The translations under genes were made by a program, and so were the position numbers. The notes below the pieces were generated by a model, which was given only the letters and a program-made list of their open reading frames with translations, had not been told where the DNA came from and searched no databases. Below, in pieces: positions 27,047 through 58,397 of a DNA stretch of 64,000 nucleotides (position 1 is its first letter; each line of letters starts with the position of its first letter). The stretch comes from Symbiotaphrina buchneri (Eukaryota; Ascomycota; Symbiotaphrinales; Symbiotaphrinaceae), in the NCBI GenBank assembly GCA_001599915.1, contig BCIG01000013.1, positions 372,001 through 436,000 on the forward strand, given 5' to 3'.

Positions 27047-27601
27047 GATGAGTCTTCAACTTGTCAGTGTTTCGAAAGGGTATGGCAAGTCACAGGAATG
27101 TTGTATCGATGGAGAAGCTGCCAGATACAGGCTTTAGTGAAGCTACCCCGCCAATACTGCACGAACTACGTCAGCGTCTCCCAGCCGGATATCAATCACC
27201 ATTGGGAAACCCGGGCTGAAGAACCGCAAATTAAGGTATGCATGCTACCAGCACGATTAGATCATCTGGTTATACCTCTTGCAAAATTCACATTCACCAT
27301 CTCACTGGAGCAAATTGGATGTCAAGTACTTAGGTAGATCTTCAGAGCGGAATACATTCTAGAACAAGACAATTATCGTTATCGCTTGTAGTACCTCTTG
27401 TACCCATGCGACAATCTCCATTTCTTGTTGCTTTTGGCGAAGGGCAAGGGCAAGGACCACGGCAATCCGGGCGTTCGGGATCTCGGCTTATGCAGATGCC
27501 GATTGCCTCGCTAGTCTCCAGCACCAGGCATGAGCGCACACAAAGTTCAGAGGGCAATTATATTTAGCGAAATTAGGACTACCTTTTCAATAAGCAACAA
27601 C
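27047..27601. other. intergenic region upstream of tRNA-Gly
   Basis: 555 bp holding the epimerase promoter and the 5' flank of the tRNA. Nothing else is recognised. No clear upstream TATA box for Pol III could be fixed. Confidence 0.5.
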
Positions 27602-27757
27602 GCACTGGTGGTGTGAGTTCTTCTCCAAATCTTCATCCCACCAACAGCCTTCTAATTCATCAAAACAGTTAGTGGTAAAATCTGTCGTTGCCATACGTCC
27701 AATCATCTGATTGGCATGAATTCGACAGGCCCCGGGTTCGATTCCCGGCCAGTGCAT
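27602..27757 (+). tRNA. tRNA-Gly(GCC) with two introns, one in the D arm
   Basis: Acceptor strands GCACTGG (27602-27608) and CCAGTGC (27750-27756) pair in all seven positions, with discriminator A at 27757. The T arm is CCGGG/TTCGATT/CCCGG (27733-27749), giving an intact B box. The anticodon stem is TGTCG/CGACA with anticodon GCC at 27690-27692. A 28-nt insertion at 27694-27721 follows position 37, the standard place, and contains TGGCA that can pair with the anticodon TGCCA. A second insertion, 27613-27668 (56 nt), splits the D stem between positions 11 and 12: GTGAGT donor, CTAAT near the 3' end, CAG acceptor. Removing both leaves a 71-nt tRNA with a four-pair D stem. The insertion breaks the A box. 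Downstream, T7 at 27800-27806 can stop Pol III. Confidence 0.88.
27613..27668 (+). other. spliceosomal-like intron inside the tRNA-Gly D arm
   Basis: 56 nt beginning GTGAGTTC and ending AAAACAG, with TTCTAATTC about 19 nt before the acceptor. Length, donor, branch site and acceptor match the protein-gene introns of this window. Its ends are fixed by the tRNA: only this excision restores GTTT/AAAT pairing in the D stem. Confidence 0.7.
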
Positions 27758-27771
27758 TAATTCATCTGGCC

Positions 27772-27806
27772 CCAGTCTTAAGACTGGAGAATCCTGATCT
27801 TTTTTT
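27772..27806 (+). terminator. palindrome followed by T-run downstream of tRNA-Gly
   Basis: CCAGTCTTAAGACTGG at 27772-27787 is a perfect 16-nt palindrome, followed by T7 at 27800-27806. The T-run suffices as a Pol III terminator; the palindrome is not needed for Pol III and its role is unknown. Confidence 0.55.
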
Positions 27807-56768: not shown

Positions 56769-58397
56769 ATGGCCTCCTGGCTATCCCGGACGGCTTCCAC
56801 CCAGAAGGCCCAGCTAGCTATCACAGCCGTGATCTCTGGGGTAGTGGTGGCAGGGACGATAATCGGTTATCAGAGCGTGAGAAGAAAAGTCAGGACACAC
56901 GATCTGAAGGAGTCGATTCCAGATATAGACGAGGAAAATGCTCCGCAGACGGTGGGTTCATGCCCTGCCATGTACCGCCGGTCCGTCCGTCCAGGCTGAT
57001 CGACGAAGTACAGCTTACGGAATATGGCGTTGCTTCCACAGCAGCCGCACCGAACAAAGAAGATGAACGCAGTGCAGCTCTGGCAGAAAGGGCGCAGATG
57101 GGAGATTATGATGAAGGTACGATTGCCCGTTTGTCGAGGACCGTAGGTAATTGCAACTGATACGCGTTCAGATCTGATACTCGAGCAATTGGCTCGAAAC
57201 AGGGTATTTTTGAAAGATGAAGGCCTTGCAAAACTCCGTGCTGCATTTGTGATCGTCGTTGGTTGTGGTGGAGTCGGGTCGCATGCGACAGCAGCTCTCG
57301 CAAGATCTGGCGTGTCCAAGCTCAGACTGATTGATTTTGACCAAGTTACCCTATCATCCCTCAACCGGCACGCTCTTGCTACTCTGGTGGATGTCGGCAC
57401 TCCTAAGGTTCAGTGTATCCGGAAACGCATTGGACAAATTGCCCCTTGGGTACGATTCGACTGCCGCAACGAGCTTTTCAGCGAGAGCTCCGCGGAGCGC
57501 CAATTGGGTCCTTGGGAGGGTCAGAAGCCGGATTATGTTATCGATGCGATCGACAACATCGATAGCAAAGTTGCTCTGCTAAACTATTGCTATAATCACT
57601 CAGTTCCCGTCGTGTCCTCTATGGGTGCAGGAACCAAGTCTGATGTCACACGTATCTTCATTGGAGATATTTCATCAAGCCTGGAAGATCCGTTATCGAG
57701 GGCAACGCGGCGTCGTCTACGAGCGCTGGGGGTCAAAGACGGCATCCCCGTCGTATACTCTACGGAGAAGCCAGGGCCCGGAAAGGCAGAGCTGCTGCCA
57801 TTGCCTGAAGAGGAATTCGCAAAAGGAGGGGTCGGTGAACTGGGTGTTCTTCCGGAGTTTCGTGTGAGAATCCTGCCGGTGCTGGGTACTATGCCTGCTG
57901 TCTTTGGATACGCGGCAGCAAATCATGTAATCCTGGAAATTGCAGATTATCCGCATGAATACATTCCTGCCAAAACTAGGGAGCGAATGTATGAGGGGAT
58001 ACTTGGTACGCTGCATGGACTTGAGGAGAGAATCGCTCGGTATCAAGGGGAAGACGTGATTGGCCTCCGCCTGCCAATTACGAATGAGGACGTTGGGTAC
58101 CTCGTTGATGAAGTGTACAAAGGACGTAGTGTGGTCAGCGGACTACCCACTCGACTGGTCTTAACGCGGTGGAGACCTCCAGAGAAAGGCTCCATGATTG
58201 ATCGCAGGATGGAGGGGCAGAAGCTGGCCAGATTGAAGCTTAGAGATCTGGTTTGCATGACCAAGGAAGAGATGCTCGTCCATGAGAAGCAGGTGCTGAA
58301 TGGGGGCCAGCAACCCGAGCAGGTGTACGATGCGGCAGTGTGCGAGCTGGTGGAGCGACGGATGAAGGAAGAAGCTGAATTTGAGCGTTACAGGTAG
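56769..58397 (+). CDS. E1-like tRNA threonylcarbamoyladenosine dehydratase (TCD1/TCD2 type)
   Basis: Exons 56769-56951, 57014-57116 and 57172-58397 give 503 residues. Tcd enzymes (CsdL/TcdA family) use ATP to cyclise t6A37 of ANN-decoding tRNAs to ct6A, and in yeast sit on the outer mitochondrial membrane. A membrane helix at about 16-34 is followed by Arg-rich VRRKVR. The ThiF/E1 domain has VVGCGGVGSHA, IDFDQVTLSSLNRHA, DAIDNIDSKVAL and SSMGAGTKSDVTRI. The PVVYSTEKPGPGK segment and LPVLGTMPAVFGYAAANHV are family features. The first intron ends at TACAG (57013), 14 nt after a CTGAT branch site, joining APQT to LTEYG. The upstream CAG gives the wrong frame. Confidence 0.93.

Follow-up and report, generated by a model that had tools for sequence, protein, structure and literature searches.

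The stretch of DNA analysed here, referred to as the window, comprises 64,000 nucleotides of Symbiotaphrina buchneri and is part of contig C13 in a 23.4-Mb assembly of 82 contigs. A tRNA-Gly(GCC) gene within it is divided into three exons by one interruption in the D arm and one at the ordinary tRNA intron site (Table 1). When both introns are taken out, the exons form a fully paired cloverleaf of 71 nt, as the initial annotation of this DNA had proposed from the letters; its start at 27602 stands, and its end moves from 27757 to 27756, making the gene one base shorter. The sequence also bears out the 56-nt insert between positions 11 and 12, with GTGAGT at its start and ACAG at its end, as well as the second intron, which is seen both in the sequence and by ARAGORN after removal of the insert. 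The CTAAT motif described in the insert is present too, although it starts 17 nt, and not 19 nt, before the insert end. The claim that the A box is broken up by the D-arm intron also holds, for both Gly(GCC) genes of this genome.

Table 1 Features of the tRNA-Gly(GCC) gene (window coordinates) and sites of the ectopic inserts found across the genome (usual tRNA numbering, assigned from the fold).
Feature	Position	Strand	Basis or remark
Exon 1 of tRNA-Gly(GCC), positions 1–11	27602..27612	+	Sequence and structural scoring; 11 nt
Ectopic spliceosomal-type intron at 11/12, GTGAGT ... ACAG	27613..27668	+	Structural scoring, signals; 56 nt; same site in L002
Branch-site-like CTAAT	27652..27656	+	Sequence; 13 nt between branch A and intron end
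Exon 2 of tRNA-Gly(GCC), position 12 to 37, anticodon GCC	27669..27693	+	Sequence, structural scoring, ARAGORN; 25 nt
Ordinary 37/38 tRNA intron	27694..27721	+	Structural scoring, ARAGORN; 28 nt
Exon 3 of tRNA-Gly(GCC), 38 to discriminator	27722..27756	+	Sequence, structural scoring; 35 nt; holds B box GGTTCGATTCC
TATA-like element TTATA	27558..27562	+	Upstream-element scan; ~44 bp 5' of tRNA-Gly(GCC)
Perfect inverted repeat CCAGTCTTAAGACTGG in the 3' trailer	27772..27787	+	Sequence
Seven-T run, likely Pol III terminator of tRNA-Gly(GCC)	27800..27806	+	T-run scan
Ectopic insert, Gly(GCC) L001 (window gene) and L002	11/12		D arm
Ectopic insert, Ala(AGC) L077	13/14		D arm
Ectopic insert, Val(AAC) L101	15/16		D arm; GC-AG type
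Two ectopic inserts, Ser(AGA) L102	15/16 (L102a) and variable arm		No 37/38 intron
Ectopic insert, Arg(CCG) L027	19/20		D arm
Ectopic insert, Pro(TGG) L080	23/24		D arm
Ectopic insert, Asp(GTC) L109	30/31		Anticodon arm
Ectopic insert, L040	32/33		Anticodon arm; probably Thr(TGT), isotype uncertain
Ectopic insert, Trp(CCA) L029	51/52		T arm
Ectopic insert, Ala(AGC) L161	51/52		T arm
Ectopic insert, Pro(AGG) L082, Gln(TTG) L099 and Arg(TCT) L086	52/53		T arm
Ectopic insert, Ile(AAT) L028	53/54		T arm

To assess the borders of the insert, we used a cloverleaf score that is blind to splice sites and tried excisions of 40–79 nt along each gene. For the window gene, the insert running from GTGAGT to ACAG was the single best among 3,220 excisions on this structure-only score, and the GT-AG insert of the second Gly(GCC) gene was likewise the single best among 3,140. 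ARAGORN returned nothing on the uncut locus; once 27613–27668 had been removed, it called tRNA-Gly(gcc) and placed a 28-nt intron at 37/38. The uncut locus was not reported by the Rfam tRNA model, and running ARAGORN in its bacterial mode gave no tRNA for the whole window.

The trailer of both Gly(GCC) genes is long, extending for 42–43 nt before the first stretch of at least five T, and has a hairpin in its middle whose stem differs between the two copies (CCAGTCTTAAGACTGG in the window gene, CTGATCTAAGATCAG in the other); judged from these stems, the hairpins look like a conserved pairing. For two proteins of the window, the best-matching named sequences belong to Pezizomycotina (71–74% identity), namely Lepidopterella, Trichoglossum and Xylona for one protein, and Pycnora (Candelariomycetes), Sarea (Sareomycetes), Thelocarpon and Xylona for the other.

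On the minus strand at C9:675660-675812 lies the second Gly(GCC) gene (L002), whose mature 71-nt sequence is identical to that of the window gene. The L002 insert occupies the same 11/12 site and keeps GTGAGT, TCTAAT and ACAG, with a diverged interior. A search of the assembly with a Gly(GCC) pattern spanning the D loop to the anticodon, which genes interrupted within that stretch would escape, gave exactly two perfect matches, and both are the split genes. With one mismatch allowed, the single match was Gly(CCC) L007; with two, there were 23 matches compared to 10 for a reversed-pattern control, and among the 23, one was Ala L077 and five were near-identical copies of one repeat. The initial annotation had named the presence of many intact tRNA-Gly(GCC) genes as grounds for regarding the window gene as dead, and this one pattern search of the assembly returned no intact gene. 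An equivalent pattern for Trp(CCA) gave one perfect match in the genome, which is again a split gene (L029), and 7 one-mismatch matches against 12 in the control. The Gly(GCC) and Trp(CCA) tRNAs are irreplaceable, and because other tRNAs cannot substitute for them, the split genes must be spliced, on the assumption that the assembly is complete.

For a genome-wide survey of tRNA genes, we combined the Rfam tRNA model run over the assembly (at least 27 matches, with 62 of 613 candidates scored) with two B-box patterns, GGTTCGANYCC, for which 91 of 91 sites were read, some of them with no more than about 240 nt of upstream sequence, and GGTTCAANYCC, for which 58 of 81 were read. Seven of 42 rows were dropped by eye as non-tRNA (L031, L045, L079, L100, L118, L154 and L158); in the second scan, L055, L088, L094, L107 and the two over-long readings of L062 and L066 were dropped by eye, and in the third scan one of 3 matches was filtered out by a script. 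Two further loci, L009 and L016, were set aside as mitochondrial-looking. One of the dropped rows, L100, combines within 295 bp a D arm like that of a tRNA (GGGCACTTGGCCTAGTGGTATGGC) with a perfect T arm but lacks matching acceptor strands. Compiled in this way, the survey favours genes that have a B box and would largely overlook introns that disrupt it, and it lacks several isoacceptors, namely Phe, initiator and elongator Met, Ala(TGC), Ser(CGA), Ser(GCT) and Ile(TAT). The surveyed set has few copies per isoacceptor.

The survey contains 44 nuclear tRNA-like genes, three of which are doubtful (L020, L036 and L106). Fifteen of the 44 carry a total of 16 inserts outside 37/38, here called ectopic, placed in the D arm (seven), the anticodon arm (two), the variable arm (one) and the T arm (six). 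Among the doubtful genes, L020 is a 162-nt tRNA-like gene in which the anticodon loop could not be resolved, and its acceptor and D arm recall what we take to be Ile(TAT). L036 and L106 are tRNA-like with a score of 48 each, compared to 57–66 for the other 26 in the same set, and are possibly decayed or otherwise split.

The 16 ectopic inserts are 49–69 nt long; 15 start with GT and one with GC, all end in AG, and G stands at position 5 in every one. In fungi, the branch-site motif is CTRAY, and a strict version of it is found in 14/16 inserts, leaving 10–18 nt after its A, while L080 and L040 have weaker motifs only. All 16 satisfy a loose intron rule (a G[TC] start, G at position 5, a branch-like motif and an AG end) that was written after the inserts had been seen; of 400,000 segments of 45–71 nt drawn at random from the window, 107 satisfy it as well. 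Insert borders were first set by eye with splice signals in mind, and the blind structural score served as a check on them. In 12 of the 14 single-insert genes, no excision beats the GT-AG one structurally when sliding ties are allowed; the exceptions are Ala L077, where five other excisions outscore the spliceosomal-type one, and Val L101, where four do. Across the split genes, structural scores are 56–64 for excised and 38–60 for uncut sequences, and the Thr gene L040 already scores 60 uncut, compared to 63 excised. ARAGORN, allowing introns of 0–120 nt, recognised a tRNA in 15/15 excised genes and the assigned isotype in 11/15, reading another anticodon that disagrees with the assigned isotype in Arg(CCG), Thr, Ile and Pro(AGG). 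The excised sequences are thus predicted to fold as complete tRNAs.

Ordinary 37/38 introns occur in 25 of the 28 tRNA-like sequences that have no ectopic insert, a high share for fungi, and none of these 25 introns has GT/GC...AG ends. As a reference for mRNA introns, we aligned two window genes to their homologues, requiring GT/GC and AG alone. The ten introns mapped in this manner are 48–118 nt long, with seven between 48 and 58 nt; a strict CTRAY at most 35 nt from the end is present in six, one has no motif, and position 5 is G in eight. One intron used in this comparison (57117-57171, GTACGA...CTGAT...CAG, 55 nt) lies in a ThiF-type gene, for a tRNA threonylcarbamoyladenosine dehydratase. 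The likeness between the D-arm insert and the mRNA introns of the window, which the initial annotation had put forward, holds in size and in the kind of signal, with the qualification that the mRNA signals are weaker and less regular. Judged by these signals, the ectopic tRNA introns and the mRNA introns appear to be the same in kind, the tRNA ones being the more regular. A loose intron pattern applied to the whole window gave 46 occurrences, compared to a simulated mean of 28 (sd 5.8, largest 45), and was discarded as too loose for use.

Paralogues within the genome provide empty sites. At the place where Ile(AAT) L028 has CTGGG, 69 nt of insert and TTCGAGC, its paralogue L008 shows CTGGGTTCGAGC, so that L008 is a version without the T-arm intron; Asp L023 reads CATTTCTGCTTGTCA where L109 has CATTTCCG, a 49-nt insert and CTTGTCA, and is thus without the anticodon-stem intron. 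The two Ala genes are reciprocal, L077 carrying its ectopic intron in the D arm, with an uninterrupted T arm, and L161 the other way round. Since these Ile, Asp and Ala paralogues show empty sites, removal of the inserts restores the sequence of a sister gene from the same genome. We also considered introner-type repeats and rejected them: with the whole Gly gene as query, the two Gly loci alone were found at E<=0.001, and no pair among the 16 ectopic introns is more similar than the two Gly copies, which gives no sign of a recent repeat family.

Only split genes with flanking sequence of 40 nt or more entered the counts of terminators and upstream elements. A run of at least five T occurs within 60 nt 3' of 9/9 split genes and of all 21 ordinary tRNA genes tested (of 29), compared to 2.75% of random 60-mers from the window. 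TATA-like elements lie upstream of 7/14 split genes and 10/21 ordinary ones, with 7.5% of random window 60-mers containing one. In five of the six T-arm-split genes, the B box GGTTCRANYCC is perfect in the DNA by way of the final AG or G of the intron, a count that is biased because four of the six (L082, L086, L099 and L161) came from B-box patterns; the exception is Ile L028, where it reads AGTTCGAGCCC. Arg(CCG) L027 and Pro(TGG) L080 have a whole A box 5' of the intron, and most of it is retained in Val and Ser; the intron cuts it in both Gly(GCC) genes and in Ala L077, with GTGAGT following TGGT or TGGTTT. Avoidance of T-runs in the ectopic introns was not significant (at least four T in 1/16, 3.8 expected, P=0.066), and the count lends Pol III no support, because mRNA introns, with such a run in 1/10, are no different. 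The one exception among the ectopic introns is that of Trp L029, which contains TTTTT and might stop Pol III early. The initial annotation had left the choice of polymerase open; because terminators and upstream elements match those of ordinary tRNA genes, Pol III is now favoured, and on the evidence of these flanking elements it is the likely polymerase of the split genes.

Taken together, these observations suggest that the D-arm insert is very probably a U2-type spliceosomal intron in a working nuclear tRNA-Gly(GCC) gene, and that about a third of the tRNA genes surveyed would be read alike. Support for the spliceosomal reading comes from the 5' splice site, branch-like motif and AG found in 16/16 ectopic inserts, from their mRNA-intron size and from the empty sites in paralogues. 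From the sequence signals we infer that the ectopic introns are removed by the spliceosome. In the gene of the window, Pol III would probably start from the TATA-like element, the B box and a partly kept A box, and stop at the T-run; the D-arm intron would then be removed by the spliceosome, after which the D arm could fold, and the 37/38 intron would subsequently be removed by the tRNA splicing endonuclease and ligase. The 37/38 endonuclease measures from the tRNA body, and because an insert in the D arm or T arm should spoil this measuring, the spliceosomal step probably comes first. On balance, we favour the wider proposal that the spliceosome is obligatory for tRNA processing in this fungus, acting before the endonuclease on Pol III transcripts from roughly one in three nuclear tRNA genes, among them all Gly(GCC) genes and the single Trp(CCA) gene detected, in which case splicing would limit translation.

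Splicing by the spliceosome normally goes together with Pol II transcription, which counts for a different route in which the split genes are Pol II transcripts that are spliced like mRNA, with the tRNA then cut out of the spliced product; the interrupted A boxes of Gly(GCC) and Ala L077 also speak for it. This route nevertheless seems unlikely to us, given that split and unsplit genes are alike in their T-runs (9/9 and 21/21) and TATA-like elements (7/14 and 10/21), and that S. pombe U6 is described in PMC8917221 as a Pol III transcript that is spliced by the spliceosome. Another reading takes the split genes to be dead or dying copies carrying insertions, with functional intact genes elsewhere. 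An assembly in 82 contigs may be incomplete, and 58 of the 81 GGTTCAANYCC sites were read, both of which leave some room for such genes; against this, the exons are paired, the two mature Gly(GCC) sequences are identical while the intron interiors have diverged with their signals kept, and the pattern searches of the assembly yielded neither an intact match for Gly(GCC) nor, for Trp(CCA), a perfect match besides L029. Random insertions, moreover, would not all be GT/GC...AG. We therefore consider the dead-copy reading largely refuted and very improbable. That the D-arm insert is a lone, newly arisen intron, which the initial annotation had entertained, is excluded, since the phenomenon recurs over the genome.

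Ectopic tRNA introns of the bulge-helix-bulge (BHB) type, which are removed by the tRNA endonuclease, are described for archaea and the red alga C. merolae in PMC3978253, and the inserts could in principle be of this type. In the Ser gene, insert L102a can form 9/10 pairs of such a motif, a value matched by 2.4% of its shuffles. It is the only one of the 16 inserts with at least 9/10 pairs, where 0.18 would be expected from shuffles; a 4-bp central helix is missing in 10/16, including both Gly genes, and the GT-AG ends and branch motif are left unexplained. The claim that the usual tRNA endonuclease site cannot account for the insert is accordingly sustained, both by these pairings and by the positions outside 37/38, and we give BHB introns an even smaller chance than dead copies. 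Finally, tRNA-like halves might flank an unrelated, intron-looking spacer by chance: flexible searches can find long tRNA-like arrangements, and L020, L036 and L106 are cases in point. With a unique structural optimum, a second Gly copy and one rule for 16 inserts, chance is already refuted by recurrence, and its probability is negligible.

In textbooks, the spliceosome serves Pol II transcripts, and tRNAs are processed by a protein endonuclease and a ligase. The introns reported here are ordinary in kind; it is their location in tRNA genes that is unusual. Among the papers listed in searches of the open-licence PMC literature, preprints excluded, none was found that describes a spliceosomal intron in a nuclear tRNA gene, and the exceptions that we met in that literature are fission yeast U6, transcribed by Pol III, and lichen rDNA, transcribed by Pol I. 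U6 of Schizosaccharomyces pombe is a Pol III transcript with an mRNA-type intron that is spliced by the spliceosome (PMC8917221); there, a single snRNA gene that is itself part of the spliceosome is concerned, whereas here the hosts are many tRNA genes, interrupted in conserved structural arms. No parallel U6 intron exists in the present genome, where the U6 match runs through the full model in 99 bases, so that an intron would not fit; a search for SRP RNA gave no match in this genome and none in the control genomes either. Lichen-forming ascomycetes have ectopic short spliceosomal introns, one of them 57 bp, in nuclear rDNA (PMC8527467). These are likewise short, spliceosomal and located in ascomycete genes outside the Pol II set, although their hosts are rRNA genes rather than tRNA genes. 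Canonical 37/38 introns also interrupt tRNA genes, and both Gly(GCC) genes have one in addition, but the ectopic inserts differ from them in position, in their GT-AG ends and in the branch motif. There is also a likeness in placement to archaea and Cyanidioschyzon merolae, where ectopic tRNA introns, along with permuted tRNA genes, rest on BHB motifs and similarly fall in the D, anticodon, variable and T arms (PMC3978253); in contrast to those, 15/16 of the inserts here are without a good BHB, and all have spliceosomal ends.

If the proposed reading is true, the spliceosome can routinely process short, structured, uncapped Pol III transcripts, splicing capacity is tied to translation, and the Ile, Asp and Ala paralogues constitute natural before-and-after pairs for intron gain. 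Annotation is affected as well: the Rfam tRNA model missed the gene of the window, and with introns allowed, ARAGORN gave a wrong isotype for 7/15 uncut split genes, nothing for the other 8/15 and the assigned isotype for 0/15.
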